60,473 nt of DNA from Lactiplantibacillus songbeiensis. GTDB taxonomy: Bacteria > Bacillota > Bacilli > Lactobacillales > Lactobacillaceae. Below are positions 10,282 through 55,653 of the stretch, one piece after another (position 1 is the first letter of the stretch; every line of letters begins with the position of its first letter). The stretch spans positions 1 through 60,473 of the forward strand of contig NZ_BJDL01000014.1 of assembly GCF_005405125.1 (NCBI RefSeq), read 5' to 3'. A program made the translations under genes and the position numbers. The notes under the pieces were generated by a model. That model saw only the letters and a program-made list of their open reading frames with translations, made no database searches and was not told the DNA's origin.

Positions 10282-10429
10282 GCGCAGGGCGGACTGGATG
10301 ATGCTCAGTGGTGAAATTTCACTTGGCCGATGATTTTCCGGCCTAGTGAAAGCCCGGCTTGCGAGCCCGCTTTTTGGCTCGCAAACGCGGCCACCACGTT
10401 CCAGCATCAATCCAGGCCAACCGGAGCGG
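10282..10429 (+). repeat. cloverleaf repeat, family 1, copy 1
   Basis: Lies between convergent genes. Hairpin 1 has TTTCAC/GTGAAA ends and hairpin 2 is TTGCGAG/CTCGCAA. The outer stem is the CTGGAT/ATCCAG type. Upstream, 10205-10240 resembles the edge of the family 3 element at 34264. Confidence 0.85.
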
Positions 10430-10445
10430 AAAAATGATACTAACT

Positions 10446-10488
10446 AAAAATCCGTTGATTTCTAAAATTTAGAAGTCAACGGATTTTT
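10446..10488. terminator. bidirectional terminator
   Basis: A 21-bp near-perfect inverted repeat with A-run and T-run ends (AAAAATCCGTTGA with its complement). It sits between the convergent XrtG operon and apbE. Confidence 0.85.
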
Positions 10489-10495
10489 AGTGGGG

Positions 10496-11497
10496 TTAGA
10501 TGATTTCGAAGTCTGGATCTAACAGCGTGACATTTGCTCGATCTAAGCCGACAAGCTGAATCTTTTTTTCTTTGGTGACGAAGATGGCACCATATAAGTC
10601 ATCACGGTCAACGCCCCAGTTGACTTCTGGTTGGCCGGCGAAGAATAGCCGGGTGGTTTCGATTTCACCATCAATAGATTGTTTGGATAAAATCGTCACG
10701 CTTAATAAGTCATTTTGCCGCGGGTAGCCGGTTTTGGAATCTAAGATATGGTGGTAAGATTTACCATTGATATCCAAGTGGCGTTCATAGATACCACTAG
10801 TTACAGCGGAACACGGTCCAATCTTGACGCTGGCGATCGCATTGCCACGTGGTGATAACGGATTTTGAATGCCGACGCGCCATTGTTGATCATCATGGAG
10901 TGGGGAATCACCGACCATCAATAAGTTACCACCTAAGTTAATCATACCGGCCCGTTGTCCAAAGGCTTCCCAGTAATCTTGAATCCGATCAGCGATGTAG
11001 CCCTTCGCGATGCCACCTAAGTCCAGTTCCATGCCGGGATGTTGCAGGTAGACACTGAATTGTTGGTCATCTAAGTCAACGTTGAATGGGTCAACCAGCT
11101 TTAAACGGGCATCAATCTCAGCTTGGGTAGGAACTTGCGCATCGTCAAAGCCGATGCGCCAAAGTTTCACTAAGGGGCCGATTAACGCATTGAAGCCAAA
11201 ATGCTGCTGGCTCAGCAGAATCGCTTGCTTCACTAGCGAGTAGGTCGCGGCTGAAACTTGCACCGGATACCGGCCAGCAGCGTGATTAATCGCCATGACT
11301 TCGGACTGGCTGCGGTTAACAGTCAACCGATCTTCGTATTGATCGATTAAGTGCGTCGCTTGCGTCAAATAGTCGCCAGTATCACTACCGAAAAGCGTTA
11401 AATCAATATCAGTTCCTAAACCATAATGAGCAATGTGCCGGCGTTGTTGTGCCAGTTGTGGGATTGCGGGTTGGTCGTGGTCATCTAAAGTTGTCAT
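10496..11497 (-). CDS. apbE: FAD:protein FMN transferase
   Basis: A 333-aa ApbE family protein. These enzymes attach FMN from FAD to a Thr/Ser of target flavoproteins, often extracellular or membrane redox proteins, using magnesium. Visible motifs are MELDLGGIAKGYIAD (FAD/metal region), AGMINLGGN, YHHILDSKTGYP and the later GEIETT segment. No obvious lipobox or signal peptide is present, so it may act inside the cell. The ATG has AGGA about nine bases upstream. No flavoprotein target (for example a fumarate reductase with an FMN-binding site) lies nearby, so its client must be elsewhere. Confidence 0.88.
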   Translation of the reverse strand: MTTLDDHDQPAIPQLAQQRRHIAHYGLGTDIDLTLFGSDTGDYLTQATHLIDQYEDRLTVNRSQSEVMAINHAAGRYPVQVSAATYSLVKQAILLSQQHFGFNALIGPLVKLWRIGFDDAQVPTQAEIDARLKLVDPFNVDLDDQQFSVYLQHPGMELDLGGIAKGYIADRIQDYWEAFGQRAGMINLGGNLLMVGDSPLHDDQQWRVGIQNPLSPRGNAIASVKIGPCSAVTSGIYERHLDINGKSYHHILDSKTGYPRQNDLLSVTILSKQSIDGEIETTRLFFAGQPEVNWGVDRDDLYGAIFVTKEKKIQLVGLDRANVTLLDPDFEII

Positions 11498-11544
11498 GTT
11501 ATCAAGTCCTATCTCTATTGTGCCGTGCTTAGCAGTAAATGAAT

Positions 11545-11764
11545 GATGCTTGGTGCTAGCTTAAATTGTCGTCTGCCGGTTGAATTGTTGGGTTAGATGA
11601 TAATTATCAGGTAATTAACGGCGGGCGGTCCAGAATTGGCTCAGTGGTGTCGTTTATCTTAGTCGGTGATTTTCCGACTTAGATAAAGCCCGGCTTTCGA
11701 GACCGCACTGTGGCTCGGAAACGTGGCCACCACGTTCCAGCCGATTCTGGACCAACCAGAGTGA
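11545..11764 (+). repeat. cloverleaf composite with family 2 core deleted; family 1 copy 2 at 11621-11764
   Basis: The family 2 tail (GCTTGGTGCTAG, then GTCTGCCGGTTG) runs straight into the linker and then a full family 1 cloverleaf. It looks like an internal deletion of the two-part element seen at 55306-55653. Hairpin 1 is TTTATCTTAGTCGG type and hairpin 2 is TTTCGAG with one wobble pair. Confidence 0.75.
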
Positions 11765-11793
11765 CAATTTAATCCAACTTCAAGCAGAATGAC

Positions 11794-12411: not shown

Positions 12412-15252
12412 ATGAGTAAGAAAACGCACCATAATCGGCAATTGATGCGTATGTATAAGCCGGGTAAATTGTTGATGATGGTACTATTGTTTCTGACTAG
12501 TTGGGGATTAATGACGGTTAAAGCACAAGCACAGCCGACTTTGGAGAGTCGATTAGCGCAACCAACATTGTCAGCTAAGGCGCCAACGACCGCTGATGCG
12601 GCGGCAATCAAACAACTCTATACAGAGCTGATGACGCGTTTAAAAACCAATCGTCATTTGAAACCACTTAAATTGAAACCACAAAAGACTCCACAAGTAC
12701 GGACGGCCTTTGCTGGGTTGGAATTTATGGTCACGGAGGTTCAAAAGAATGGCATTATCTATCCACATAACTTTTATTGGCCGCAATATACGTGGTTGCC
12801 ATTGAACCAAGCGATTGACCATGATTTTTGGGAGTCGATAAGTATTAATGATGAACCATTATTCGACGAAGAACTAGTCGATCATTTTGCAACCTATTTA
12901 CAAGATGTCGATCTAGTTAAGACCACTTATGGGAACAAAACATACGGGGAGTTCATTTATCAATCTTATTTGGATAATGTTTCTGATCCAGATGATCTTG
13001 ATCCAGATGTCATTGCTACGGGCATACCGACGAGTTCTGGATTTCAAGCTTGGATATTGGGCCGTTTTGCACGCTTAGAATTAGGCCAGACAACGGCGGC
13101 AGATATTCAAGCAGAATATGCGGCAAAGTATCGTGAGTATGTGGTGATATTAGACGAGTTTGTTAATATGATCTCTGGCGAATCAGGAACGTTATCCCAA
13201 TTTGACACAATGATCAGTATTTTGGATTCAGATATTGCCCATGATTACTTTATCAAACCAATGTTAGATAATGCGTATGCCATCATTGGTGCTGATTATC
13301 CGCTAACTGAACTGGCCACATTGGACCCTGAAGCAACAATTGCGATTAACACAACGCAATACCACGCACCAGCTTTGGATCGGATGATAACGCAACATCA
13401 AGGACAAACTTGGCTGACGTTGGCGGCATTTAATCTGGTCCAGACCTATATTATGGATAATCCGGCTGACATTGCGGCCCCAGTCACGGTTAGTTATGAG
13501 GATCAAGCTGGCCAGTCAATTGCCGATAGTCGAACGATTACTGGTAATTTGGATGATGCTTATGATACCACGACCGATGACTACCAATTGGCAATCGCTG
13601 GGTATACCTTAGATAAAACGAAGTTACCAGTTAATGCGAAAGGTACGTTGACGGCCGATCAACAGACCGTGACGTATGTTTATACTAAAGACGTTGTCGC
13701 GGCCAAGCCGGTGACGGTCCATTATCAAGATGAGACCGGCACGGCACTGGCTGAACCAGACGTGCTGACTGGAAATGTAGGCGATCCGTATGCGACGACG
13801 GCTAAGTCATTTAAAGGCTATACGTTAGCGAACGTGACCGGACCCGTGAGCGGAACGTTAAGTGAGACGGCTCAAACCGTCGTCTATACGTACGCCAAAG
13901 ATCCGATTGCCGGTGCGCCGGTAACGGTACGCCATCAGGATGAAGCGGGTCAAAAGCTGGCCGCCGACGAAACCTTAAAAGGAAATATTGGCGATCAACT
14001 GCAAACGAAGGCGCAATCTATTGATGGTTATGTCTTCAAGTCCGTTGACGGTGAGCCAATTGTGACCATCACAGACCAGCCACAAACGGTGATTTATACC
14101 TATACGCCAATCGCGGTGGCGACCGGTTCAGTTACAATTAATTATCTGGATGCTGATGGTCAGGCGATTGCCCCAGCAACCACCTTAACGGGGGCAGTCG
14201 GTGATTCCTTTGAATCGGCACCGTTAACGATTACGGGTTATACGCTGAAGCCAGATACGACCACGATTAGCGGCAGGTATACGCAGGCGGTGCAACAGTT
14301 TAGTTACCACTACACCAAAACAACGGCACCGGTAACAGATGGCGCCGTGTTGGTGCGGTATGTTGATCAGGACAATCATCAGCTGGCAGACGCGACAACG
14401 TTAACAGGTAGGCTTGGTGAAGCGTTCACGACAACGGCGAAGACGATCCCTAATTATGAGTTGGTCAAGACGGAAGGGCCAATTAAAGGCACCTATACCG
14501 AAACGTTACAAACGGTGACCTATCGTTACAAACCAGTGACGGCCCCGGTTACAACTGGGCAAGTTAACGTTCATTATGTGGATACAGGTGGTAACACGAT
14601 TGCAGAGTCAGCGACGTTGACTGGTAACGTAGGCACAACTTATCAAACGACCTTAAAGGAAATTGCTGGCTACACGTATCAAAAAGTGACCGGCGCGCCG
14701 AGTGGCCAATATACGAGTGCAACGCAGACGGTGACTTACGTTTATACCAAATCAATGGTTGCTGTTGACCAAGGAAAAGTGACGGTGAATTACACCGACT
14801 TAAATGGGAAACCATTACAAGCTGTTACCATACTGGCTGGTGAGGTCGGAACGGCCTATACGACCACGGCGGCTAAAATCACCGGCTATACCTTCCATGA
14901 TGTGGTAGGGACGGCCGAAGGAACCTTTACCACTACCGCTCAAACCGTGACTTATCGGTATCAGGCGGTGAAAACGACGGCGCCAATTGATCCTGATGAC
15001 GGCGGTAGTAGTGATTCAGACGGTGATACGATCAATCCAGGACCGTCAACTAAGCCTACGACGAGTACTGGTACTGTGGCTACAAGTACCACACCGATGA
15101 AATCGACTGCCACACAAATTCTAAAGGTCCCTGCCAGCAGTGGCCGCTTACCAAAATCTAATGAACAGCGGTCTAGTTGGCTGACTGTGATTGGCCTTGG
15201 TTTATTGGCTGGAATCGGTCTTGTGGTCTGGCGGATGCGGCGTCACTCGTAG
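12412..15252 (+). CDS. MucBP-repeat cell-wall adhesin with LPxTG-like anchor
   Basis: A 946-aa surface protein. A long signal peptide covers about residues 1-42. A unique N-terminal domain (about 43-355) of unknown fold follows. Seven MucBP-type repeats of about 70 aa span about 357-845, each opening with V-x-V-x-Y-x-D and closing with VTYxY. A Ser/Thr-rich spacer leads to the sorting signal LPKSN at about 914-918, a hydrophobic helix and the tail WRMRRHS. MucBP domains bind mucin glycans in lactobacilli. LPKSN departs from the usual LPQTxE, so it may be a weak sortase A substrate. A good AAAGGAG precedes the ATG. The gene appears to be transcribed alone. Confidence 0.92.
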   Translation: MSKKTHHNRQLMRMYKPGKLLMMVLLFLTSWGLMTVKAQAQPTLESRLAQPTLSAKAPTTADAAAIKQLYTELMTRLKTNRHLKPLKLKPQKTPQVRTAFAGLEFMVTEVQKNGIIYPHNFYWPQYTWLPLNQAIDHDFWESISINDEPLFDEELVDHFATYLQDVDLVKTTYGNKTYGEFIYQSYLDNVSDPDDLDPDVIATGIPTSSGFQAWILGRFARLELGQTTAADIQAEYAAKYREYVVILDEFVNMISGESGTLSQFDTMISILDSDIAHDYFIKPMLDNAYAIIGADYPLTELATLDPEATIAINTTQYHAPALDRMITQHQGQTWLTLAAFNLVQTYIMDNPADIAAPVTVSYEDQAGQSIADSRTITGNLDDAYDTTTDDYQLAIAGYTLDKTKLPVNAKGTLTADQQTVTYVYTKDVVAAKPVTVHYQDETGTALAEPDVLTGNVGDPYATTAKSFKGYTLANVTGPVSGTLSETAQTVVYTYAKDPIAGAPVTVRHQDEAGQKLAADETLKGNIGDQLQTKAQSIDGYVFKSVDGEPIVTITDQPQTVIYTYTPIAVATGSVTINYLDADGQAIAPATTLTGAVGDSFESAPLTITGYTLKPDTTTISGRYTQAVQQFSYHYTKTTAPVTDGAVLVRYVDQDNHQLADATTLTGRLGEAFTTTAKTIPNYELVKTEGPIKGTYTETLQTVTYRYKPVTAPVTTGQVNVHYVDTGGNTIAESATLTGNVGTTYQTTLKEIAGYTYQKVTGAPSGQYTSATQTVTYVYTKSMVAVDQGKVTVNYTDLNGKPLQAVTILAGEVGTAYTTTAAKITGYTFHDVVGTAEGTFTTTAQTVTYRYQAVKTTAPIDPDDGGSSDSDGDTINPGPSTKPTTSTGTVATSTTPMKSTATQILKVPASSGRLPKSNEQRSSWLTVIGLGLLAGIGLVVWRMRRHS

Positions 15253-18173: not shown

Positions 18174-18320
18174 CACTCCGGTTGGTCTGGATTGATGCTG
18201 GAACGTGGTGGCCACGTTTGTGAGCCATAAAGCGGTCTCACAAGCCGGGCTTTCACTAAATTGAGAAAATCACTCGATTAAGTGAAACGACACCACTGAG
18301 CATCATCCAGCCCGTCCTTC
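18174..18320 (-). repeat. cloverleaf repeat, family 1, copy 3
   Basis: Hairpin 1 has TTTCAC/GTGAAA ends and an AATCGAG neck. Hairpin 2 is TTGTGAG/CTCACAA. The outer stem is the CTGGAT type. It follows the aspA stop by 33 bases. Confidence 0.85.
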
Positions 18321-18466: not shown

Positions 18467-18618
18467 TAGTTGGACTTTAAAATACTGGAACGTCATAGGC
18501 CATTTTGAAGCCAAGATGGGCTTCAAAATGGCCTTAGCCTTAAAGTCCAAGTAAGCCTACTCGCAGTTAGGCCCAACGAAACGGCTGAGCATTTTAGCAT
18601 CCAAACTCTCGGCTAAAT
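18467..18618 (-). repeat. cloverleaf repeat, family 2, copy 1 (diverged)
   Basis: The outer stem is eroded, but the CATTTTGAAG/CTTCAAAATG hairpin is intact (20-bp region). It is joined by the usual linker (about 18607-18670) to family 1 copy 4, making composite 18467-18812. Confidence 0.75.
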
Positions 18619-18670: not shown

Positions 18671-18812
18671 ACGGGCGGCTCAGAATTGGCTCAGTGGTGT
18701 CGTTTATCTTAGTCGTGGTTTTCGACTTAGATAAAGCCCGGCTTGTGAGACCGAACTTTGGCTCACAAACGTGGCCACCACGTTCCAGCCGATTCTGGGC
18801 CAACCAGAGTGG
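18671..18812 (+). repeat. cloverleaf repeat, family 1, copy 4
   Basis: Hairpin 1 is TTTATCTTAGTCG type with a shortened loop. Hairpin 2 is TTGTGAG/CTCACAA. This is the right half of a two-part composite. Confidence 0.85.
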
Positions 18813-23145: not shown

Positions 23146-23189
23146 TTAATTAACGGGAATTAATGACTATTTATTGTCAATCACAAATT

Positions 23190-42955: not shown

Positions 42956-45094
42956 TTAATGGACATTTGGCACTAATCCCAGCCGGGTTGCTAAATGCTG
43001 AGTAGCCATTAAATCGGCATGACTGATCGTCGTGGCCTGAAAAGCTTGACTATCACGGGTAACTTGTTGGACGAAGTTGTTGTGGCCGTGGTTGTTGGCA
43101 GTTGTTAAGGTCAAATCGTGATCAGCGAGATGCAACGTCACTTCATCGAAAGCGGGTAGGCCTAAGACATATTCAGCGTCGGCAGGACAGACTGGGTAAA
43201 AGCCCAGGCAGGCAAAGATGAACCAAGCTGACATTGAGCCGTTATCTTCATCACCGGGAAAACCAGTTGTCGAAGCGTCAAATAGCTGACGTAATTGTTT
43301 AACCACGACTTGTGTCTTTTCTGGATGACCAGCTAAGGCGAAGAGATATGGGAGATGGAAGCTCGGCTGATTGGAGATGGCTAACTGGCCGTAATCAACG
43401 GCGGCCATCTCAGTCATTTCATGAATGACCATGTCGTATCCGCCGATTTGATAAGTCGGTTGGGTGTTACATAGGGCGGTTAGCTGGGCATCGAGTTTGT
43501 CTGGACCGCCCATCGCCGTCATTAAGCCATCGATATCATGAAAGGCACTGAAGCTGTTTTGCCAGGCGCTGCCTTCGGTGTAATCGCCACCCCAACGATC
43601 CGGTGCAAAGTTGGGTTTAAAGCGACCATCCGTATTTTTAGGGCGTAAGAAGCCCGTTTGTTTATCAAGCAAGTTCAAATAACGTTTAGATTGTTGCCAA
43701 TAAGTCTGTGCTAGCTGTGGTTGCTTTAATACCGCCGCAACTTGGCCGATACAGTAATCGCTATAAGCATAGTCTTGTGTGCGATTGACACTTTCGGAAT
43801 ATTGATCGGCGGGCAAGTAACCGTACTGGTCATAATCAGCGCCACCCGTCCGACCATAACGATTGTTTTCGGCGGGCTTGGTATCGCTGTCAATCATGGC
43901 TGTCAACAGTTCGGGTAGCAAGTCGGTCGCAATGCCCTTTTTAGCACATTCTGCAATAATCGAGTCCACTAAATTCCCCGGCATCATCCCGCGTTCATCC
44001 GGTGCTAGCCAGCGGGGTAAAAAGCCGGTCTCTTGATACGACGTCAAAAAGCCGCGTAAGAATTTTGGTAGGAGTTCCGGCGCCAAGATTGAAAAGAGCG
44101 CATAAACGGATTTGGCGGTATCCCAAAAGCCGTTGTTCGTATATAAAATCCCTGGTTTAGCCACTTTATCCGTCGTATCGTAATGGATGGGTTGCCGATT
44201 CGCGTCAATTTCGTAAAACCGTTGCGGGAAGAGGAACAACCGGTATAAACAAGTGTAGAACGTTTGCACCACCGCGGCGTGATGATCGCGGACGCTGACT
44301 CGGTCTAAGTAATCGTTCCAACGGTTGGCGCTTTCATTTTCAAGCTGGCCGAATGACCGCTGGCTAATCCGACTGAGATTTAAGCTCGCTTGTTCAGCGC
44401 TAATAAACGACGTGGCTAACCGCGCGTCAAAGTTGATGGCTGGCGTGGCCACTAATAGGGTTAATTGATGGCCAGTCGCTTCAGTCGCTGTCTGCCAGTT
44501 ACCTTGGTCGTCGTAGTAGCCAGAGTGGGCAATGTCGATGGCTGGCAAGCTGAGTTCGGCGTACATCGTCAAGTTTGGGTCTTCGCCGCCATGATAGTCC
44601 GCGGTATAGAGTTGAATATGATTGTCGATCAACCGAAAGCCGCCGTCATCGGGTAGTTGAAGCTGTAGACCATGATGTTCGGCTAAAAGCCGGTCGAATT
44701 GGTAGCGTAACGCCGCGCCATAAGTCGTGGGCGTTAGTTCATTGTGGACATTAAAATGGTCATCGTAGATTGCTAAATAATTCGCTTGAAAAGTTGCCCG
44801 GTCTGGCTGGTAATTGCCAGTAAAATCGGGATTGGTTTGGGGATCATGCCACTGCACTGCGGTGATTAAAAAGTGGCTATAGTCGCCAATCCAGGGGCTA
44901 GGCTGATGGGTTACGCGAATTCCTTCGAATTGGGAATCAGTTGGTTGGAAAAACCAGCTATTGGCCGCACCATTAGTCTGGGCGACATAGTAGTTCATTC
45001 CCATTGGCACGCCAACGTATGGTAGGCAGTTACCGTTTGACCGGTGAGGTGAATTGGCGGTTCCTTGGCGAATATCAAGTTGGTCGATGTGCAT
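42956..45094 (-). CDS. GH92 alpha-mannosidase (predicted alpha-1,2), cytosolic
   Basis: A 712-aa glycoside hydrolase of family 92, a calcium-dependent inverting exo-alpha-mannosidase. Signatures are NGNCLPYVGVPMGMN at the N-terminus, TNNGFWDTAKS, the HEMTEMA acid region, QPSFHLPYLFALAG, and the C-terminal DEDNGSMSAWFIFACLGFYPVCP. No signal peptide is present, so the enzyme is intracellular. It is encoded three bases behind the regulator gene, with AAAGGAGG for translation, so the two are one operon divergent from GH125-GH38-ROK. It would trim terminal alpha-1,2-mannose from imported high-mannose glycans. Confidence 0.93.
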   Translation of the reverse strand: MHIDQLDIRQGTANSPHRSNGNCLPYVGVPMGMNYYVAQTNGAANSWFFQPTDSQFEGIRVTHQPSPWIGDYSHFLITAVQWHDPQTNPDFTGNYQPDRATFQANYLAIYDDHFNVHNELTPTTYGAALRYQFDRLLAEHHGLQLQLPDDGGFRLIDNHIQLYTADYHGGEDPNLTMYAELSLPAIDIAHSGYYDDQGNWQTATEATGHQLTLLVATPAINFDARLATSFISAEQASLNLSRISQRSFGQLENESANRWNDYLDRVSVRDHHAAVVQTFYTCLYRLFLFPQRFYEIDANRQPIHYDTTDKVAKPGILYTNNGFWDTAKSVYALFSILAPELLPKFLRGFLTSYQETGFLPRWLAPDERGMMPGNLVDSIIAECAKKGIATDLLPELLTAMIDSDTKPAENNRYGRTGGADYDQYGYLPADQYSESVNRTQDYAYSDYCIGQVAAVLKQPQLAQTYWQQSKRYLNLLDKQTGFLRPKNTDGRFKPNFAPDRWGGDYTEGSAWQNSFSAFHDIDGLMTAMGGPDKLDAQLTALCNTQPTYQIGGYDMVIHEMTEMAAVDYGQLAISNQPSFHLPYLFALAGHPEKTQVVVKQLRQLFDASTTGFPGDEDNGSMSAWFIFACLGFYPVCPADAEYVLGLPAFDEVTLHLADHDLTLTTANNHGHNNFVQQVTRDSQAFQATTISHADLMATQHLATRLGLVPNVH

Positions 45095-45097
45095 AAG

Positions 45098-46159
45098 TTA
45101 ATCCTCCTTTGAATAGGGCACCATTGGTTTGGTGGAGTCACGTGGAATTAACGTGACCGGTAATTTAATGAGCATGTTAGTCGTGGTTGGTTGTAATAGT
45201 CGGTCAACGGCTTTGGCGCCCATCCCTTGAAAGTCTTGGGCGACAGTCGTTAAGGCCGGGTACGTTAAGCTGGCCGCTTGAATATTATCGAAGCCGACGA
45301 TCGATAGGCGTTGAAATAACGCGGGATCGGTATCACGTAGCGCGTTCATCAGTTTGATCGCGGTTAGGTCATTTTCGACGACGATACTGGTAATGGCATG
45401 ATCTTTAAGGTAGCGCACCCATTGTTCCGGGGTGAACTGATTCAAGTCAGCCAGTTGCGCAAGTGGTGCCGGGGGGGTCAGCTTAGCGGCATGCAAGGCC
45501 GTTAAATACCCGAAGTAACGGTCGTATACGGAACTCGGTAAAACGGATTCAGCTTGCGCATAAAACAAAATTTGCGTGTGCTGTAGCTGAATTAAGTGTT
45601 CGGTAGCTAATTGTCCACCAGTAAAGTTGTCGGCGGCCACTACTGGCAATCCGAGTTCTGGAAATTGTTTATCCAATAAAACGATTGGTAAATGGGCTAG
45701 CTTTAATTGGTAGAGTCGCTCAGCGTCGGCGTACAAGTTCTGAGTTAAATAGATAATTCCAGCGTATTGGGTCTGTAAGTCCCGGAGGCTCAGCTGGTTA
45801 AAGTTCTCCGTATCCATCGTCACGGTCTGATAACCGCGCGCGGTGGCTGCTTGGCTAACGCCGGACGCATAGTCGCCGAGCCCGGCATCCGTTGGAAATG
45901 GCAGGACTAATAATAGTTGTTGTGCAGTTTGGGTCTGTGGTAAACGTTGCACGAAACTACCGCTACCTTGTTGACGATAGATTAGACCGTGACTTTCTAG
46001 TTCGGTTAAGGCCCGCTTAGACGTAATTCGGCTGACGGCGTACGTTTTGGCTAGTTGTAGTTCGGTTGGTAATTGTTCATCTGGTTGGAGCTGACCGTTG
46101 GCAATTTGTTGCTGTAAATCATGATAAATTTTTAAATAACGCGGTTCATTTTTTGGCAT
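45098..46159 (-). CDS. GntR-HTH/LacI-type sugar-sensing regulator
   Basis: A 353-aa regulator. A GntR winged-helix domain (about 5-72, LPTELQLAKTYAVSRITSKRALTELESHGLIYRQQGSGSF in pieces) is fused to a LacI/periplasmic-binding-like effector domain (about 78-350). This is the AraR/BglR-like architecture, which usually represses until a sugar binds. It faces the GH125-GH38-ROK operon, and three copies of a TTTGATATATCAAA-like element lie in the 147-bp spacer. It is therefore the probable repressor of both divergent operons. Confidence 0.9.
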   Translation of the reverse strand: MPKNEPRYLKIYHDLQQQIANGQLQPDEQLPTELQLAKTYAVSRITSKRALTELESHGLIYRQQGSGSFVQRLPQTQTAQQLLLVLPFPTDAGLGDYASGVSQAATARGYQTVTMDTENFNQLSLRDLQTQYAGIIYLTQNLYADAERLYQLKLAHLPIVLLDKQFPELGLPVVAADNFTGGQLATEHLIQLQHTQILFYAQAESVLPSSVYDRYFGYLTALHAAKLTPPAPLAQLADLNQFTPEQWVRYLKDHAITSIVVENDLTAIKLMNALRDTDPALFQRLSIVGFDNIQAASLTYPALTTVAQDFQGMGAKAVDRLLQPTTTNMLIKLPVTLIPRDSTKPMVPYSKED

Positions 46160-46191
46160 GGTTCCTCACTTCCATTGTCCTTGATTGCCAT

Positions 46192-46293
46192 TAATATATC
46201 ATTTAAGCCGGTAAAAGGAAAGCAAAACGAGTGTATTTGATATAGACAATTATTAAACACATGCTATAATAACGGAAAATGATATATCAAATA
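46192..46293. promoter_or_regulatory. divergent control region with three operator-like repeats and GH125 promoter
   Basis: Three related elements occur. TTAATATATCATTTA is at 46191-46205, TATTTGATATAGAC at 46234-46247, and AAATGATATATCAAATA at 46277-46293; the last contains the palindrome TGATATATCA at 46280-46289. A promoter TAGACA (46243-46248), 16 bp, TATAAT (46265-46270) drives GH125. The second element overlaps its -35 and the third sits at about +1, the usual repressor geometry. Confidence 0.65.
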
Positions 46294-46306
46294 ATGAGGT
46301 GAGCAG

Positions 46307-47596
46307 ATGACAACCAATTATGTTGACGACCAAGTGACCGCTTTTGTAGCTAAGATTAGCCAGTTGAGTCAAGACTTGGACCCCCGTTACGGGCAGGTTT
46401 TCCAGCAAACATTTTTAAATACGTTAGCAACCACGATCTCAGATGATGATGCCGGTCGCGCTTTTATTTTGACCGGGGACATTCCAGCAATGTGGCAACG
46501 CGATTCGACAGCCCAAGTGCGGCCTTATCTTGTATTAGCCCGGGAACACCCTGGTATTGCGGATCTGATTACGCGGGTCGTCCAACGGCAATTCTTTAAT
46601 ATGACTTTGGATCCATATGCCAATGCCTTTAATGAAACCGCTAACGGTCAAGGCCACCAAAGTGATCAGACCGAGATGGGTCCTTGGATCTGGGAGCGCA
46701 AGTTTGAGATTGATTCCTTATGTTATCCAGTTCAGCTAGCCTACCTGCTTTATCGTAATACTGGGGCGACTGACCAATTTGATACGAACTTTGTCAGTGG
46801 CGTGCGGGCACTACTGCGGACCTTTGCCGTCGAACAACATCATGACAGTTCACCATATCGCTTTGTGCGGACCAAAGACCGTCCTGAAGATTCATTGGTG
46901 CGAGACGGTCGGGGGACTCCGGTGGCCGAGACAGGGATGATCTGGTCCGGTTTTCGGCCGAGTGATGATGCTTGTGAATACGGGTATCTCGTTCCCGCCA
47001 ATATGTTTGCCGTGGTGATTCTAGGATATTTGCAAGAGATCTTTAGCAGTGTCCTGGATGACCCAACGATTGTGGCGACGGCTAAAAAGTTACAACAAGA
47101 AATTCGCACTGGCATTGAAACGTATGGCTATACGCAGAATGCCAATGGCGAACAAGTCTATGCCTATGAAGTTGACGGCTTAGGCCACGCCAAGTTAATG
47201 GATGACGGCAACGTGCCGAGCCTGTTGAGTGCGCCATATTTGGGTTATTGTGACTTGTTCGACGATAACTACATGCGGACGCGGCAGACCTTATTGAGTC
47301 CAGAAAATCCCTATTACTATAGTGGCAAGCTAGCCGCGGGCCAAGGCAGTCCGCATACGCCGGTTAATTATATTTGGCCGATTGCGATTGCGATGGAAGG
47401 CTTAACGACGCGCGCGGCCGGACCACAATTACAGGCCTTACAGACGTTGGTTCAAACGACTGGCGGGACGGATTTGATGCATGAATCCTTTGATGTCAAT
47501 GACGACCGCCGTTTTACCCGCGAATGGTTCTCCTGGGCCAATATGATGTATTGCGAATTATTGTTAACGACGCTAGGGTTTAAAATCGAAAGGTGA
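46307..47596 (+). CDS. GH125 exo-alpha-1,6-mannosidase, cytosolic
   Basis: A 429-aa glycoside hydrolase of family 125, inverting enzymes specific for alpha-1,6-mannose in N-glycans and yeast mannan. Signatures are FILTGDIPAMWQRDSTAQVRPY in parts, NAFNETANG, EMGPWIWERKFEIDSLCYP, IWSGFRPSDDACEYGYLVP and the terminal DVNDDRRFTREWFSWANM. No signal peptide is present. GAGGTGAG precedes the ATG. It is the first gene of the operon and is followed within nine bases by GH38. Confidence 0.94.
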   Translation: MTTNYVDDQVTAFVAKISQLSQDLDPRYGQVFQQTFLNTLATTISDDDAGRAFILTGDIPAMWQRDSTAQVRPYLVLAREHPGIADLITRVVQRQFFNMTLDPYANAFNETANGQGHQSDQTEMGPWIWERKFEIDSLCYPVQLAYLLYRNTGATDQFDTNFVSGVRALLRTFAVEQHHDSSPYRFVRTKDRPEDSLVRDGRGTPVAETGMIWSGFRPSDDACEYGYLVPANMFAVVILGYLQEIFSSVLDDPTIVATAKKLQQEIRTGIETYGYTQNANGEQVYAYEVDGLGHAKLMDDGNVPSLLSAPYLGYCDLFDDNYMRTRQTLLSPENPYYYSGKLAAGQGSPHTPVNYIWPIAIAMEGLTTRAAGPQLQALQTLVQTTGGTDLMHESFDVNDDRRFTREWFSWANMMYCELLLTTLGFKIER

Positions 47597-47604
47597 TTAA
47601 AACG

Positions 47605-50307
47605 ATGACTAAGAAAAAGGTTTTTATTATTTCTCACAGCCACTGGGATCGCGAATGGTACATGCCATTTGAGCAACATCACATGCGCTTGGTAACGTTG
47701 ATTGATAACTTGTTGGACTTGTTTAAGCATGATCCTGATTTTGACAGCTTTCATCTGGATGGTCAGATGATTGCGTTAGATGATTATCTGGCAGTACGCC
47801 CAGAACGCAAGCCAGAACTGGCGGCGGCCATTACGGCGGGCAAGTTACGGATTGGGCCGTTTTACATCTTGCAAGATGATTTTTTGATCAGTCCGGAAGC
47901 TAATGTCCGCAATATGGTGATTGGTCGCGATGAAGCTTTGGCGTATGGCGACGAAGTGAAGTTAGGCTACTTCCCAGATACATTCGGTAATATGGGCCAG
48001 ACACCACAGATGATGGCGTTAGCGGACTTAGATACGGCGGCGTTTGGTCGTGGGGTGACCCCAACTGGGTTTAATAATCAGACCGGGGGGGCCGACTATG
48101 CGTCACAATATTCTGAGATGTGGTGGCAAGGACCAGACGGAACACGGATTTTAGGCCTGTTATTTGCTAATTGGTATAGCAATGGGAATGAGATTCCAAC
48201 TGATCCAGCTCAAGCGAAAATCTATTGGGACCAAAAGCTGGCCGATGCCGAAGCTTATGCCTCAACTGATAACTTATTGATGATGAACGGCGTCGATCAC
48301 GAACCGGTGCAGGCTGATGTGACCACGGCGATTAAAGTGGCGAATGAACTATATCCGGACTATGAATTCGTCCATTCAAACTTTCCCGATTATTTGGCCG
48401 CTTTAAAAAATAGCTTGCCAACCCAATTGAGTACGATTAAAGGCGAACTGACTAGTCAAGAAACGGATGGTTGGTATACTTTGGCGAATACGGCGTCGAG
48501 TCGGGTCTACTTGAAGCAGGCCAATACGCGTAATGAACGCTTACTTGATAGTATTGCGGAACCGTTGGCGACAATGGCTTATCCGGCCGAGCAATACCCA
48601 CATGACCGCTTCCGTTATGCCTGGAAATTACTTTTACAGAACCACCCACATGATAGTATTTGTGGCTGTTCAGTAGATGAGGTTCACCGCGAGATGTTAA
48701 CCCGGTTTGCCAAATCAACGGAAGTGGGGCGCTACTTGGCGCAAGATGCCTTGAACACCTTAGCTCAACGCATTGATACCACGGACTTTGATACTGATGC
48801 CAAGCCATTTGTGGTGGTCAATACTACGGGGTTTGTGAAGTCCGGACAGACTGAGGTAACGATCGAATGGGATCGTCGGAACTTTAGTCCGGAGATGACG
48901 ATTCAAGCTCAACGCGCTGAATTAGAAGCGGAATTGGCAGCCTTACCAACGCTACAATTAGTCGATGCAAGTGGGCAAGCCGTACCGTTTCGATTAGTGA
49001 AGCAAGCCGTTGAGTTTCATTATGATTTGCCAAAAGACCGTTTCCGAGTGGCGTATCAAGCCATTGAAATCACGATTGCCATCAACGTGACCGGTCTTCC
49101 AGCATATGGGTGGCAGACGTTGGCCTTGCAAGCGGCTAAGGAAAGCGTCACACCGATTGAAGGGCCGACACGGCGGGCGTTTAGTGAGCATGAATTCAGT
49201 AATGAATGGTTGAAAGTGACGGTTGCGAGTGATGGCAGCTTGACGATCACTAACCGAGAGACTGGGCATATCTACCACCAGATGTTGGTATTTGAAGATA
49301 CGGGTGATATGGGGAATGAGTACATCTACCGGCAAACTGCCGATAACCAGGCGATTCTCTCGACGGACTTTCCAACTGAAGTTCGGCTCGTCCACGATGA
49401 TGCGCTGGGCGTTGAAGTTGAACTGATTAATCAGCTAGCGATTCCAGTATCCGCCGATGAGCAGTTATTAGCTGAACAACAAGCGGTCGTGGATATTACT
49501 CATCGAACGGCGAAACGGTCCACGGTGACGCGGCCATTAACGATTACCACCCGCATGCGCTTAGGTCGGCATAGTCGGCAATTACAGTTTAAGACCAGCT
49601 TTGATAATCAAATGCGTGATCATCGGGTGCGGGTCTTGTTCCAAACGAACTTAGCGGCGACGACGAACACGAGCGATGTGATTTTTGAAACGGTCACCCG
49701 TGCGAATGAACCCGCCGCAAATTGGCAAAATCCAACGAATCCCCAACATCAACAGGCTTTTGTTAACTTACACGATGCGCAAAACGGGGTCACGATTGGG
49801 AACATCGGGTTGAATGAATATGAAATCTTACCGAAACACGGGACGATTGCCGTCACGTTATTGCGTTCAGTTGGTGAAATGGGCGATTGGGGTTATTTTC
49901 CAACGCCAGAAGCGCAGTGTTTAGGGGCGTTCAGTTGCGAGTATAGTTTGGCATTACATGATGGGACGACTGAACAACGGTTGGTCAGTTATCAACAGGC
50001 ACGTAATTTCCAAGTGCCGTTTAGTGTTCAGCCGACTGATTGGCATGCGGGCGAACTGGCGGCCGACGATGCTTATTTGCAATTACGGACCTTAGAATTT
50101 GCGGTAACTAGTTTCAAACGGGCAAATAATTCTGCCGGGGCGACTTTAAGAGGTTATAATTTAACTAAGCAACCGGTTACATTAGACGTGAGCTGCTGTC
50201 AGACACCAGCAACGGCGGTGAATTTTCTCGAACAGCCGTTACCAGATGTAGCGAGTGATCAATTAGGACCGGCTGAAATCAAAACGCTATTATTTGCGAA
50301 AAAATGA
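47605..50307 (+). CDS. GH38 alpha-mannosidase, cytosolic
   Basis: A 900-aa retaining alpha-mannosidase of family 38. The zinc site is seen as HSHWDREW (His13, Asp15), GYFPDTFGN with the nucleophile Asp125, and HPHDSICGCS. The C-terminal beta domains complete the usual length. No signal peptide is present. The ATG at 47605, behind AAAGGTG, is chosen over a GTG at 47593 that overlaps GH125. In pneumococcus the homologue releases alpha-1,3-mannose after GH92 and GH125 act. The gene ends ten bases before the ROK kinase. Confidence 0.94.
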   Translation: MTKKKVFIISHSHWDREWYMPFEQHHMRLVTLIDNLLDLFKHDPDFDSFHLDGQMIALDDYLAVRPERKPELAAAITAGKLRIGPFYILQDDFLISPEANVRNMVIGRDEALAYGDEVKLGYFPDTFGNMGQTPQMMALADLDTAAFGRGVTPTGFNNQTGGADYASQYSEMWWQGPDGTRILGLLFANWYSNGNEIPTDPAQAKIYWDQKLADAEAYASTDNLLMMNGVDHEPVQADVTTAIKVANELYPDYEFVHSNFPDYLAALKNSLPTQLSTIKGELTSQETDGWYTLANTASSRVYLKQANTRNERLLDSIAEPLATMAYPAEQYPHDRFRYAWKLLLQNHPHDSICGCSVDEVHREMLTRFAKSTEVGRYLAQDALNTLAQRIDTTDFDTDAKPFVVVNTTGFVKSGQTEVTIEWDRRNFSPEMTIQAQRAELEAELAALPTLQLVDASGQAVPFRLVKQAVEFHYDLPKDRFRVAYQAIEITIAINVTGLPAYGWQTLALQAAKESVTPIEGPTRRAFSEHEFSNEWLKVTVASDGSLTITNRETGHIYHQMLVFEDTGDMGNEYIYRQTADNQAILSTDFPTEVRLVHDDALGVEVELINQLAIPVSADEQLLAEQQAVVDITHRTAKRSTVTRPLTITTRMRLGRHSRQLQFKTSFDNQMRDHRVRVLFQTNLAATTNTSDVIFETVTRANEPAANWQNPTNPQHQQAFVNLHDAQNGVTIGNIGLNEYEILPKHGTIAVTLLRSVGEMGDWGYFPTPEAQCLGAFSCEYSLALHDGTTEQRLVSYQQARNFQVPFSVQPTDWHAGELAADDAYLQLRTLEFAVTSFKRANNSAGATLRGYNLTKQPVTLDVSCCQTPATAVNFLEQPLPDVASDQLGPAEIKTLLFAKK

Positions 50308-50317
50308 GGGATTTTAA

Positions 50318-51199
50318 ATGCAACCGTTAGGATTAATTGATATTGGTGGGACGTCGATCAAGTTTGCTGTATGGGATGGTCAGGGACTACAGGCACATCA
50401 TGCGCTACCAACGCCGACCACTAAGGCCGCGTTCTTTGAATTAGTGACCCATGAAGTGGCCGAAATGAAGCAGCAATGGCCGTTAGTGGGGGTCGCTATC
50501 AGTTCACCAGGGGCAGTTAATAAGCTGACTGGGGTCGTGGAAGGTGCCAGTGCGATTCCGTATATTCATAACTTTCCGATTCAGTCAGAGCTGGCTGAAA
50601 AGTTCGGCTTGCCCGTCAGCATGGAAAATGACGCTAACTGTGCCGCGTTAGCGGAATTAGCGAGTGGTGCCGGTAAAGATGTGGACAGCCTCGTCTTCCT
50701 AGTGATTGGGACTGGTGTTGGCGGTTCCGTTATCTTCAACCACCATATCTGGCATGGTGCCCATCTCTTCGGTGGGGAGTTCGGCTTTATGCTGATGAAT
50801 GACCAAGGCACGTTAAGTGAACTTGGGACCGCTCCAGCGGCAGTCAAACGGTATCTAAAAGCCAACCCAACTGCTAAAAAGCTGAGTGGCAAAGACTTAT
50901 TCGACTTAGCTGCGCAGGGCGATGCAGCCGCGACTAAAGAAGTGGATACCTTGTATCATGCGCTAGCCTTAGGAATCTATAATTTGCAATACAGTTTTGA
51001 TCCTGAAAAAGTTGTGATTGGCGGGGCAATTTCAAATAATCCACAGCTGATTCCTGGTATCGAACGCGAGATTGAAAAGATTCGGGCACAGGTCAAAATT
51101 GCTTCGATCAAACCGAACGTCGTGACTTGTCAGTATCATGATGAGGCCAATCTGCGTGGGGCGGTCGTTGATTTTGAGCAGACTTATGACCGCGTGTAG
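50318..51199 (+). CDS. ROK family sugar kinase without zinc motif
   Basis: A 293-aa ROK protein. The phosphate loop is GLIDIGGTSIKFAVWD, the catalytic Asp lies in MENDANCAALAE, and GTGVGGSVI and VVIGGAIS are typical. The usual ROK zinc motif CxCGxxGCxE is absent (EFGFMLMND then LSELGTA), placing it in the BglK-like zinc-free group. It has no DNA-binding domain, so it is a kinase and not a repressor. As the third gene of the mannosidase operon it probably phosphorylates the mannose (or a mannosyl disaccharide) released. The same ROK-GH38-GH125-GH92 set occurs in the pneumococcal N-glycan locus. Confidence 0.88.
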   Translation: MQPLGLIDIGGTSIKFAVWDGQGLQAHHALPTPTTKAAFFELVTHEVAEMKQQWPLVGVAISSPGAVNKLTGVVEGASAIPYIHNFPIQSELAEKFGLPVSMENDANCAALAELASGAGKDVDSLVFLVIGTGVGGSVIFNHHIWHGAHLFGGEFGFMLMNDQGTLSELGTAPAAVKRYLKANPTAKKLSGKDLFDLAAQGDAAATKEVDTLYHALALGIYNLQYSFDPEKVVIGGAISNNPQLIPGIEREIEKIRAQVKIASIKPNVVTCQYHDEANLRGAVVDFEQTYDRV

Positions 51200-51261
51200 T
51201 GGTAATTTGCCGCCCACTGGTATTTATTTTAAGCGTACTTGGTGCTGGTTAGATTAACTTA

Positions 51262-51406
51262 CCACTCTGGTTGGCCCAGAATCGGCTGGAACGTGGTGGC
51301 CACGTTTGGAAGCCAAGGGGCGGTCTTCCAAGCCGGGCTTTATCTAAGTCGGAAAATCACCGACCAAGATAAACGACACCACTGAGCCAATTCTGGGCCG
51401 CCCGCC
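51262..51406 (-). repeat. cloverleaf repeat, family 1, copy 13
   Basis: Hairpin 2 is the rare TTGGAAG/CTTCCAA, compensated on both arms. Hairpin 1 is TTTATCTTGGTCGG type. A linker and a family-2-like tail (CCAACTGACAGGCAG) follow without a family 2 core, again suggesting an internal deletion. Confidence 0.88.
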
Positions 51407-51514
51407 GTTAACTAACGTGGATTAGGAAATTAACGATTGATTGTTTTTAGAATCCAACTGACAGGCAGTACTTGCGCGTACCTAGACGCAATCAAACAAT
51501 GAGGTGACACAAAA

Positions 51515-52906
51515 ATGACCAGTTTTCCCAAAGATTTTGTCTGGGGAGCGGCCACATCCGGCCCGCAGACAGAAGGTAATTTCCACAAACCGCACCAAAA
51601 TGTTTTTGATTATTGGTTTGCCACCGCACCGGAGCAATTCGATGCTGGGGTGGGGCCAGACTTAGCATCCAACTTTTACAATGACTATGAACATGATTTG
51701 GACTTGATGCAGCAAGCGGGGATTCAAGGACTACGGACCTCGATTCAATGGACGCGCCTAATCGATGATTTTGAGACGGCGAGTTTGAATCCGGATGGTG
51801 TGGCCTATTACAATCGGGTGATTGACGCGATGTTGGCCCGTGGGATTGAGCCGTATCTGAATTTGCATCACTTTGACTTACCGGTGGCGCTTTATGATCA
51901 ATATGGTGGCTGGGAGTCGAAACACGTGGTAGATTTATTTGTTAAGTTTGCTGAACAATGCTTTAAGCTCTACGGTGACCGGGTGAAAAAGTGGTTCACG
52001 TTTAATGAGCCGAAAGTGGTGGTCGATGGGCAATACTTGTATGGCTGGCATTATCCACAAGTTGTCGATGGACCCAAGGCCGTGCAGGTGGCGTATAACT
52101 TGAATTTAGCCTCAGCTAAAACGGTGGCCGCTTTTCGGCAGCTCTGTCCACAGACTGATCATCAAATCGGGATTATTTTAAACTTGACCCCGGCGTATGC
52201 AGCTAGTGATGATCCCGCCGATCAAGCAGCGGCTGAATTTGCTGAGTTGTGGTCGAATAACTTATTCTTGGATCCGGCGGTACTCGGTCATTTTCCAACG
52301 AAATTGGTAGACCGGTTAACGACCGATGGGGTCATCTGGGAGTCTACTCCCGCGGAACTGGCCTTGATTGCAGCTAACCCAGTGGATGTGCTTGGGGTGA
52401 ATTATTACCATCCTTTCCGTGTTCAACGACCAGACATTTCACCAACTAGCCTACAACCGTGGTTACCGGATATTTACTTTAAAGACTATGCGATGCCAGG
52501 ACGGGTGATGAATGTCGATCGCGGGTGGGAAATCTATCCCACAGCGCTGACGGATATTGCGAAAAACATTCAGGAAAATTACCATAACATTCCGTGGTTC
52601 ATTTCGGAAAATGGGATGGGGGTTGCGCATGAAGAACGCTTCTTAGATCGTCAAGGAGTGGTTCAAGATGACTATCGGATTGACTTTATGCGAGCCCATC
52701 TAAACGCATTGGCGGCTGGTATTGCGGCCGGGTCAAATTGCCAAGGATATTTCGTATGGACGGCAATTGACTGCTGGTCATGGAATCACGCCTATCACAA
52801 CCGCTACGGCTTGATTCGTGATGAGATTCATACCCAAACGAAGACCTTGAAGAAGTCGGCTGCTTGGTTTAAGCAACTCAGTGACACCAATCAATTTGAA
52901 GACTAG
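51515..52906 (+). CDS. GH1 beta-glycosidase
   Basis: A 463-aa glycoside hydrolase of family 1. The acid/base Glu165 is in TFNEP and the nucleophile Glu365 in SENGMG. QxE near residue 18 and W-x-W-rich regions are typical. In phospho-beta-glycosidases a Ser-x6-Lys-x-Tyr set binds the 6-phosphate. Here the Ser (422) and Tyr (431) are kept but the Lys position is Asn429. Whether it takes 6-phosphoglycosides is therefore uncertain. AATGAGGTGA lies before the ATG. It sits downstream of the mannosidase operon and could hydrolyse a beta-linked core such as mannosyl-GlcNAc, but this is inference; a plant beta-glucoside is equally possible. Confidence 0.88.
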
Positions 52907-54008: not shown

Positions 54009-54054
54009 GATGTTCACCCCTGTTTGTTTTTTACAAGTTCACTATACCGAGAAA

Positions 54055-54068
54055 TGAAAGCGCTGACT
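54055..54068. promoter_or_regulatory. cre-like site upstream of the aldolase gene
   Basis: TGAAAGCGCTGACT on the plus strand fits the CcpA consensus except its last base. It lies in the promoter region of the minus-strand aldolase gene. Confidence 0.6.
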
Positions 54069-54163
54069 ATGGATTGGAAATTCATTTCAAATGAAAAAGT
54101 CGGTCTGGACCATTCAGACGGGGTTTCGTACGAAAGTAACTAGCTAAAAATTGCACATATGTG

Positions 54164-55114
54164 CTAGTCGTCTAAATCAAGCACTCTTTGGGCAGTTTCA
54201 GCATCGGTAATCAAAGTGGTGAGAATCCCCATCTTGAGTAACGCTAGGATGGCCGGGGCTTTTGTCAATGAGCGGGCGATCGCAACCGAGTTAGGGACTT
54301 GTTTGATCTGATCCAAAGGAATCGCGATGGTCCGGTTCAATAAATCCCCGCGTAAAATCTTACCGTGTTTGTCGAAAAAGGTGCAGCAACAATCCCCGAT
54401 GGCTTGGCGTTCCTTCAATAATTCACGATCGTCGGGAGTTAACAGATCTCGCCAACGACTGCTCGTATTGGTCAATGGGCCGCCGATGCCTAGCAGGGCG
54501 ATATCCAAGTTATCCCAGCAATGGCGGATTTCATGGAAGTATTGTGAAGAGGTAATCCCGTCACGAATGTATTGGGATTCCTGCACGGCCGCGGCATCCA
54601 CGAACAAGCTCTGACCCCCAAAGGCCCGCGCCGCATCGTAGACAATCCCGTTAACATGGTATTGAGCATTTGACGGACTCGGTCCACCCACCAACGGCAC
54701 AAAAGTCGCAGCGGTTTGCATTGGATGATGGAGCTGGCCAATCATGCCAGCCAGAATGGAGCCCCAGGCAAAGCCAACAATGTTGTGTGGTTTGATGATT
54801 TGTTTGAGATAAAGGGCGGCCTCGTTGGATAGTCGGCGCTCCTTTGCTTGGTGGTCGGCGTGTGGTTTGCTGGCAATGACCACGGCATTTTTAAGGTGGT
54901 AGCGTTGCCGTAACTGTTCTTCTAAATTAAATAAATCGGTGTTAAAGTCGTTGATTTTTATATCAACGATTTCGTTTTCCCGGGCTTGTTTTAACATCCG
55001 GCTGATAGTGGTGCGATAAATATTGAGTTCTTGCGCAATCTGAGCTTGCGTGTAGTCACGAATATAGTAGAGGTACGCGACTTTTGCGAGCAAGCGGCGA
55101 CGATTATCATTCAT
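54164..55114 (-). CDS. SorC/DeoR-type sugar-binding transcriptional regulator
   Basis: A 316-aa regulator. The N-terminal helix-turn-helix (about 8-55, YTQAQIAQELNIYRTTISRML) is followed by the SorC sugar-phosphate-binding domain (about 60-312) with GFAWGSILAGM, VPLVGGPS and LLGIGG. Such proteins sense phosphorylated sugars and control neighbouring sugar operons. The nearest candidates are the aldolase gene just downstream on the same strand and the PTS IIA on the other side. It has its own promoter region (55115-55305), where I see no clear operator. Confidence 0.9.
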   Translation of the reverse strand: MNDNRRRLLAKVAYLYYIRDYTQAQIAQELNIYRTTISRMLKQARENEIVDIKINDFNTDLFNLEEQLRQRYHLKNAVVIASKPHADHQAKERRLSNEAALYLKQIIKPHNIVGFAWGSILAGMIGQLHHPMQTAATFVPLVGGPSPSNAQYHVNGIVYDAARAFGGQSLFVDAAAVQESQYIRDGITSSQYFHEIRHCWDNLDIALLGIGGPLTNTSSRWRDLLTPDDRELLKERQAIGDCCCTFFDKHGKILRGDLLNRTIAIPLDQIKQVPNSVAIARSLTKAPAILALLKMGILTTLITDAETAQRVLDLDD

Positions 55115-55305
55115 AGTAAATCCTCCAATAGTTGGTGCCAGGATGGTCCGAATTCAATTGCTAGTATACCCATTAATGTATCAAGTTGCACGGACATTTA
55201 ATTACGAACGAAAATAAATTTAGTTTCACTTGACCTGAAACGCGTCTCATAAGTTATGCTTGGGTTGTTGAAAGGTAAGTAGCACGCTTGGTGCCAGTTG
55301 AAATT

Positions 55306-55470
55306 GCCGCCTGCCGGTTGGTTCCTAAAACGCTGGAACGCCATGGGCCATTTTGAAGCCAAAGTGCGGTCTTCAAAGCTGACCTTGGCCTAAGTCCGAG
55401 CAGACCACTCGCACTAAGGCCAACGACACGGCTGAGCATTTTAGGAACCAACCTATCGGCTAAATTTGTG
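55306..55470 (-). repeat. cloverleaf repeat, family 2, copy 5
   Basis: The outer stem GGTTGGTTCCTAAAACGCT with its complement is essentially perfect. With family 1 copy 14 it forms the best full composite, 55306-55653. The GCTTGGTGC tail precedes at about 55287. Confidence 0.85.
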
Positions 55471-55509
55471 GTCGACAATAGAGAATCATTAATCCCTGTT
55501 AGTTAACGT

Positions 55510-55653
55510 CGGGCGGGCCAGAATTGGCTCAGTGGTGTCATTTATCTTAGTCGGTGATTTTCCGACTTAGATAAAGCCCGGCTTTTGAGACCGTTCTATG
55601 GCTCAAAAACGTGGCCACCACGTTCCAGCCGATTCTGGCCCAACCAGAGTGGC
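55510..55653 (+). repeat. cloverleaf repeat, family 1, copy 14 (reference copy)
   Basis: The outer stem is 55515-55529 with 55627-55641 (GGGCCAGAATTGGCT, one wobble). Hairpin 1 is 55541-55554 with 55562-55575 (one central T-T). Hairpin 2 is 55583-55589 with 55602-55608. Hairpin 3 is AACGTGG/CCACGTT, 55608-55614 with 55618-55624. The element is 58 bases upstream of the IIA gene. Confidence 0.92.

Follow-up and report, generated by a model that had tools for sequence, protein, structure and literature searches.

Repeat units in the window and genome

The window analyzed here is the whole of contig NZ_BJDL01000014.1 (60,473 nucleotides), which is contig C14 of the 3.03-Mb genome (G000) of Lactiplantibacillus songbeiensis. 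Its intergenic regions carry numerous copies of a folded repeat that is probably part of a miniature inverted-repeat transposable element (MITE) whose interior folds in a strand-specific manner. A preliminary description, made from the sequence alone, had reported about twenty such repeats, including fourteen family 1 copies in both orientations, and these counts hold. Family-specific models identify 19 units, comprising 14 from family 1 (f1) and five from family 2 (f2). A single nhmmer search with a one-copy query recovers, above the inclusion threshold, 14 f1 copies (seven on each strand) and four weaker relatives, and includes one weak antisense match on a deletion copy. An additional partial match lies at 34324-34410. 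Unit cores account for 4.1% of the window, and the units and complete elements are as follows.

10287-10421, plus strand: f1 unit (nhmmer and family models)
11623-11756, plus strand: f1 unit (nhmmer and family models)
18181-18317, minus strand: f1 unit; six two-sided pair differences relative to the sister-species ortholog, pairing kept
18470-18596, minus strand: f2 unit, half of a twin with 18673-18804 (family models)
18673-18804, plus strand: f1 unit, twin partner of 18470-18596 (family models, ortholog comparison)
22709-22844, minus strand: f1 unit between an open reading frame (ORF) end at 22678 and a terminator-like hairpin; sister species without a unit there
22973-23369, unstranded: complete 397-bp twin element in which neither 17-bp terminal repeat is damaged; sister species without a unit there
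23008-23141, minus strand: f1 unit of the 22973-23369 element (family models)
23209-23336, plus strand: f2 unit of the 22973-23369 element (family models)
27918-28053, minus strand: f1 unit (family models, ortholog comparison)
28272-28409, plus strand: f1 unit (family models, ortholog comparison)
30978-31111, minus strand: f1 unit of a twin with 31171-31281; flank-like remnants at the sister site
31171-31281, plus strand: f2 unit of the twin with 30978-31111 (family models)
34508-34645, plus strand: f1 unit (family models, ortholog comparison)
42329-42430, minus strand: f1 unit with internal deletion, part of a twin with 42498-42624
42498-42624, plus strand: f2 unit of the twin with 42329-42430; terminal repeat at 42641-42657
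42800-42935, plus strand: f1 unit; both arms of the outer stem are of another type in the sister-species ortholog
51270-51403, minus strand: f1 unit (family models, ortholog comparison)
55284-55679, unstranded: complete 396-bp twin element with terminal repeats and a perfect target duplication of 7 bp
55317-55443, minus strand: f2 unit of the 55284-55679 element (family models)
55511-55644, plus strand: f1 unit of the 55284-55679 element, the example used in the preliminary description (family models, folding)

The window together with 15 stretches chosen around known copies (359,373 bp in total) contains 120 units, 78 of them f1 and 42 f2. The mobile elements number in the hundreds in this Lactiplantibacillus genome, with an uncertain total of units that comes to about 410 from the terminal-repeat ratio and about 950 from the window density. 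Their intergenic placement is confirmed: once ORFs lying mostly within a unit are removed, just three of the 120 units overlap an ORF of 100 or more codons by more than 60 bp.

Twin architecture of the element

The f1 and f2 units are halves of one mobile element. In its complete form, the element is about 396 bp long and consists of an f2 unit, a spacer, and an f1 unit, wherein the two units point apart and a 17-bp inverted repeat (ACGCTTGGTGCTAGTTG and its complement) lies outside them at the ends. A divergent f1 unit is present within 100 bp of 38 of the 42 f2 units, and the remaining four have no f1 unit within 1 kb. Both units are near full length in 27 of these 38 twins. The spacing between f2 and f1 ranges from 47 to 89 bp and is most commonly 68 bp (15 twins).

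Both 17-bp ends, at no more than four mismatches, delimit 50 elements in the G000 DNA examined. These are 104-406 bp long, with 23 falling at 391-406 bp, and the shorter ones inspected lack one unit or part of one. Single ends at up to two mismatches occur 181 times in the genome, compared with none for a reversed-pattern control. Perfect target duplications of 7-10 bp flank 12 of the 50 elements, compared with a mean of 0.245 and a maximum of three in 1000 shuffles. At 20 loci checked, no open frame of 120 or more codons lies wholly within an element, and some open frames cross elements or their ends.

Two other element types were considered. Palindrome elements of the IS200/IS605 type carry neither a terminal inverted repeat nor a duplication, and this class is ruled out by the presence of both here. 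Distant pairs of ends in G000 might have marked autonomous copies, but among about 100 of the 181 sites the three pairs examined are separate short elements.

At two loci (L164, 868-1138; L173, 1467-1620) both terminal repeats are present and one unit is missing, as if the hairpin units had been deleted as blocks. Some elements (L157 at 5409 compared with L182, and L248) sit just past terminator T-runs, and a target preference is possible.

A probable IS982-family partner

The 17-bp end, at one mismatch, has matches in six of 19 genomes of the genus. In one congener (G014), a single stretch carries two 958-bp copies of an insertion sequence (IS), in which ends of this kind enclose a frame of 290 codons. 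The second of these copies matches at 17 of 17 positions at both ends and has a 7-bp duplication. A third 958-bp copy, whose frame is interrupted, is located on another contig, and partial copies are present in another genome (G004). The 290-codon frame matches DDE_Tnp_1_3 and scores 219 bits with the NCBIfam IS982 model (cut-off 130), and its plasmid relatives, among the matches listed, are annotated as IS982. In addition, seven Lactiplantibacillus plasmid records contain the first 21 bases of this IS at genes annotated as IS982; two of these matches are exact, and the E values of 0.1 to 4 reflect the short query.

Because these congener IS982-family elements share the 17-bp ends, the repeats are best read as IS982-mobilized MITEs. 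Four hallmarks of a MITE were found in our tests, namely terminal inverted repeats, target-site duplication, the lack of an internal transposase gene, and, in a congener, an IS with matching ends. Like IS982-family ISs and MITEs derived from ISs, the elements have terminal repeats identical at 17 of 17 positions to those of the 958-bp congener element, have duplications of 7-10 bp, and are short, non-coding, and intergenic. Unlike the IS982-family ISs, with which only the ends are common (as judged by eye), they carry a twin interior, and no f1 or f2 unit lies inside the 958-bp copies seen. We propose that the element is non-autonomous and would be moved in trans by an IS982-family DDE transposase.

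Mobility relative to a sister species

As judged by one protein, the closest named relative is Lactiplantibacillus dongliensis (97%), although the records compared may exclude those nearest the window. Genome G008, taken as this species, serves as the sister species in our comparisons. Among 45 units in four G000 regions, 37 can be placed between sister-species flanks, where 19 have a unit and 18 do not. The comparison for empty sites proposed in the preliminary description yields two exact ones. At both, the 9-bp target is single in the sister species and flanks the element on both sides in G000, with one of the duplicates carrying one mismatch. These two sites are evidence of insertion, and the repeats are spread by transposition. 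For one of these two elements, identity to another copy in the sister species reaches 99%, compared with 89% for the flanks. A missing sister copy does not always leave a clean empty site, as only two of the 18 absences are exact.

At three orthologous places the sister units are in the opposite orientation. Inversion of the element was considered for all three. At one of them (L157:5409), judging from the flanks, the two insertion points are about 10 bp from each other, which makes separate insertions likelier. The other two places align better when turned round. A search of the G000 element against plasmids or phages gave no match, and one exact pattern of the element was not found in viral contigs.

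These data bear on the idea that the repeats are a domesticated host regulatory RNA, such as a dispersed 3′ untranslated region or processing element, rather than a selfish element. Such a role would be compatible with the seven window copies that are kept at orthologous sites with their pairing, and with the f1 unit that has an ORF end on one side and a terminator-like hairpin on the other. However, nearly half of the mapped units (18 of 37) have no counterpart at the sister's place, two sites there are exactly empty, and one inserted element differs very little from another copy. The elements also show no strong gene-context bias (0.49 per convergent, 0.40 per divergent, and 0.30 per tandem gap) and are patchy across the family, and we consider domestication quite unlikely.

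A separate repeat of about 1.6 kb (L155, 7026-8638) has four matching places in the sister species; its ends were inspected and nothing was recognized.

Predicted structure and covariation

The preliminary description modeled each repeat as a four-way cloverleaf with an outer stem enclosing three hairpins. This part of the model is not borne out. The RNAalifold consensus branches only once, into two arms, and also contains a lower stem, an outer stem, and a CA/GUUCC internal loop; this fold is a three-way junction in which arm 1 carries a U-U mismatch. The copy at 55490-55660 folds with a z score of -7.55 relative to shuffles. The third hairpin of the cloverleaf (AACGTGG-CCA-CCACGTT) pairs in 94.5% of cells among 13 window copies, where none of its seven pairs covary, and in 63.8% of cells among 102 copies of other genera, where its covariation is at the shuffle level. 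Since the covariation of this hairpin does not exceed that of shuffles, we rejected the cloverleaf. The competing lower stem also varies hardly at all among the 13 window copies (none of six pairs changed on both sides); in wider sets, six of six pairs covary among 122 copies and five of six among the copies of other genera. Other elements of the earlier model are retained. The outer stem formed by 55515-55529 and 55627-55641 and the CTTAG/CTTAG mismatch are as claimed, and the listed arm variants can be seen in the alignment, with a matching partner in nearly every case, although the copy at 11622 has a mismatched hairpin-2 arm.

Strong evidence of covariation accompanies this model. Among the 13 window copies, 17 of 50 pairs are changed on both sides with pairing kept. 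In a set of 122 distinct copies, of which nearly all belong to the genus, pairing holds in 97.1% of cells and two-sided changes occur at 49 of 50 pairs, and sliding the partner by one column reduces pairing to 43.6-45.4%. For 102 distinct copies of other genera, the values are 97.6% and 45 of 50, and both of these larger alignments (A2 and A4) were fitted to the structure model. None of 500 column shuffles reaches the observed covariation on any measure in either set, and so the statistical check proposed earlier comes out far above chance both within the genus and beyond it. The 72 f1 copies from G000, in an unfitted MAFFT alignment, have at least two Watson-Crick types, each in at least two copies, at 13 of 50 pairs, and 33 of these copies are without any mismatch.

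No named element was recognized in the preliminary description, and our searches agree. Rfam gives no match in the window at gathering thresholds, nor in 55200-55720 at E≤10, and there is no description in the literature searched, which comprised titles and the beginnings of abstracts with few subscription papers.

Strand bias

If only one strand folds, G-U pairs should be tolerated on that strand more often than A-C mismatches. We counted both in columns dominated by Watson-Crick pairs; the rows are related, and p-values are only indicative. G-U exceeds A-C in the other genera (129 versus 34), in the whole alignment A2 (183 versus 55), in 57 rows from outside G000 (98 versus 15), and in 42 copies from G000 that are free of other mismatches (33 versus 10). 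The RNAalifold energies for this strand and the other are -124.4 versus -114.8 for f1 and -103.0 versus -91.3 for f2. The excess of G-U over A-C is a sign that one strand folds, and it points to the outward strand, either as RNA or as that specific strand of DNA.

A promoter scan before 71 f1 units reveals no enrichment, with best scores of 7.94 compared with 7.85 for shuffled sequences. Before 27 f2 units the score is 8.19 compared with 8.01, with four sites at 9.5 or above compared with 1.8 in shuffled sequences, and there may be a weak promoter signal. No such signal precedes f1; the folding strand may instead be RNA that arises by read-through, wherein neighboring transcription enters the element.

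Alternatively, the fold might matter as single-stranded DNA or as a cruciform, with the transposition or replication machinery recognizing hairpins on one strand and RNA playing no part. The demonstrated mobility, the missing promoter signal before f1, and a strand bias that does not tell RNA from one specific DNA strand all suit this explanation, and G-T is better tolerated than A-C in DNA hairpins as well. However, the terminal repeats and the 7-10 bp duplications are as expected of a DDE transposase, and since f1 and f2 units are absent from the IS copies with matching ends, that transposase does not in itself require the fold. Moreover, each unit of a twin would fold correctly on a different strand. 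We regard a role in DNA as unlikely.

Base-pair changes at orthologous copies

Orthologous copies were compared on a fixed structure, with a few mixed classes left out of the counts. Ten co-oriented orthologous f1 pairs differ on both sides at 19 base pairs that are Watson-Crick in both species, and 89 of their 512 unpaired bases differ. The seven pairs in the window account for 13 two-sided changes, along with 12 single changes between Watson-Crick and G-U, three involving A-C, and six involving other mismatches. The three opposite-orientation pairs, counted apart, have two two-sided, seven G-U, one A-C, and three other changes. Six of the 13 window changes are located at 18181 and two at 18673, and the remaining five belong to an outer-stem switch at 42800 in which both arms, about 100 nucleotides apart, are changed and the inner hairpins remain nearly unchanged. 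One two-sided variant, TTTTA/TAAAA, occurs once among 117 sites scanned.

The preliminary description held that selection, not simple copying, gives such changes, and named the spread of a few subfamilies as the alternative. This claim stands in part. Three types account for most of the hairpin-1 arms at the 100 G000 sites compared (67, 16, and 6 sites), and so copying explains much of the pattern within the genome. However, copying does not easily explain the 13 two-sided changes at the seven orthologous window pairs, nor the arm variant seen once. Together with the covariation and the G-U excess, these changes support a model in which selection acts on a folded strand.

Mutation might also produce paired changes, either by template switching between arms (quasipalindrome correction) or by gene conversion that swaps whole hairpins. 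Long inverted arms are known substrates for quasipalindrome correction, arm types are common to many copies, and five of the 13 two-sided changes lie in one outer stem that switched type as a whole. Yet correction from arm to arm should treat G-U and A-C alike, whereas G-U is in excess. The variant found at a single site, the distance between the switched outer-stem arms with their nearly unchanged inner hairpins, and the pairing that holds across genera also speak against a purely mutational origin, which appears distinctly improbable.

Distribution across lactobacilli

The fold is found by searching relatives, as had been proposed, both in other genomes of the genus and in other genera of the family. 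Query R1 matches in 16 of 18 other genus genomes and in none of 12 genomes of other families. Across the family, which the genus places as Lactobacillaceae, at least 73 of 301 genomes and 12 of 40 genera (own genus included) have matches. These counts, and the one for the order sample that follows, are lower bounds, since in the large searches the filters were stricter and scoring was confined to 7-10 candidates in each genome. In an order sample of 395 genomes, whose share from outside the family is not stated, the 23 genomes with matches all belong to the same family. A named match outside the genus is Lapidilactobacillus luobeiensis.

The divergent twin is present in 37 of 76 loci of other genera, 14 of the 37 having been fetched as twins and some loci overlapping. 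Twins occur in six of eleven other genera (one weakly), and the remaining genera have single units. In genome G267, the only two units found form one twin. The ends of the element differ between genera.

One genome of genus g15 (G154; L199, L224-L243) has 81 matches with near-identical cores in the copies examined and with other ends (GGTTCTTTCTTAAG...), which suggests recent spread by another transposase. These ends have no match in Lactobacillaceae plasmids.

In a broader interpretation, what is conserved as a replicator would be the twin three-way junction, a selfish RNA module found family-wide and carried with different transposon ends. These would be IS982-type ends in Lactiplantibacillus and quite different ones in g15, and the fold would recruit a host or transposase factor that the module requires in order to spread. 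We consider this interpretation doubtful.

A model for the element and its weak points

We favor a MITE whose conserved cargo is not a gene and consists, in the complete form, of two divergent units of about 135 nucleotides, each predicted to fold as a three-way junction. With the twin layout, transcription entering from either side would yield one fold in the correct orientation. The benefit of the fold to the element might lie, for example, in its binding of a host RNA-processing factor, or in a host transcript that is stabilized or ended such that insertions are tolerated. That the folded strand acts in read-through transcripts is a tentative proposal, and we hold it with less confidence than the MITE with its strand-specific fold.

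In addition to the fitting of the two large alignments, several observations weigh against this model. The G-U excess is modest in the unfitted MAFFT alignment of 72 G000 copies, at 65 versus 43 over 50 columns (p = 0.04 with related rows) when three columns are dropped and a G-U-rich column, 50/72, is set aside; with that column included, the counts are 89 versus 44. For f2, the counts are 70 G-U and 53 A-C. Single changes at the ten co-oriented orthologous pairs comprise 17 G-U, 21 A-C, and 17 other mismatches, such that neither A-C nor other changes fall below G-U. Three pairs outside the window supply 18 of these 21 A-C changes and look decayed, above all L157:2909, and so some copies look to have decayed after insertion. 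No IS982 gene was found in the examined part of G000, a fraction of the genome. The flank remnants in the sister species at the twin 30978-31281 may reflect loss there rather than insertion. Finally, the ends in genus g15 differ from IS982 ends.

Relation to known repeats

Other bacterial repeats share parts of this description. The BOX, RUP, and SPRITE sequences of Streptococcus pneumoniae are likewise high-copy interspersed repeats with predicted transcript folding that are considered parasitic and MITE-like; as portrayed in the excerpted account, they are modular or simple streptococcal repeats with alignment-based structure predictions and with no fold followed across genera (PMC3049150). 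This comparison is one of descriptions, not of sequence. The bcr1 element of the Bacillus cereus group is an intergenic repeat of about 150 bp with a predicted common structure and the character of a mobile element; compared by description only, it differs in being confined to one species group (by the cited title) and, in the excerpted account, in having no twin layout (PMC2267715). QMITE2 of Coxiella burnetii is a MITE with duplications of 7-9 bp, terminal repeats, and a folded transcript, but its terminal repeats of 23-29 bp surround a core and the partial account describes no twin module (PMC10969869). The text of this MITE review contains no word beginning with Lactobac-, Lactiplanti-, or Lacticasei- (PMC10969869).

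The element appears to be a MITE of a known kind, but with a deeply conserved folded module that, judging from these sequences and accounts, would be new.

MITEs are usually seen as passive derivatives whose interior is of no importance. Here, the non-coding interior keeps a folded unit (a divergent pair in complete copies), with two-sided pair changes across genera. That the fold is kept in many other lactobacilli suggests that the elements depend on a folded RNA or on a single DNA strand. The elements point to a source of insertion differences between lactobacilli, and they offer a testable case of an RNA-dependent or RNA-tolerated mobile element in food bacteria that are harmless and genetically tractable.

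Other features of the window

A cluster of GH92, GH125, GH38, ROK, and GH1 genes (Pfam) at 42956-52906 suggests the use of mannose glycans. Seven MucBP stretches at 12412-15252 mark a mucin-binding adhesin-like protein. A 15-bp tandem repeat array (58811-59112) within a 784-codon ORF (57221-59575) resembles the repetitive region of a surface protein, and AAAGCA-type hexamer repeats are located at 60366-60467, near the contig end.

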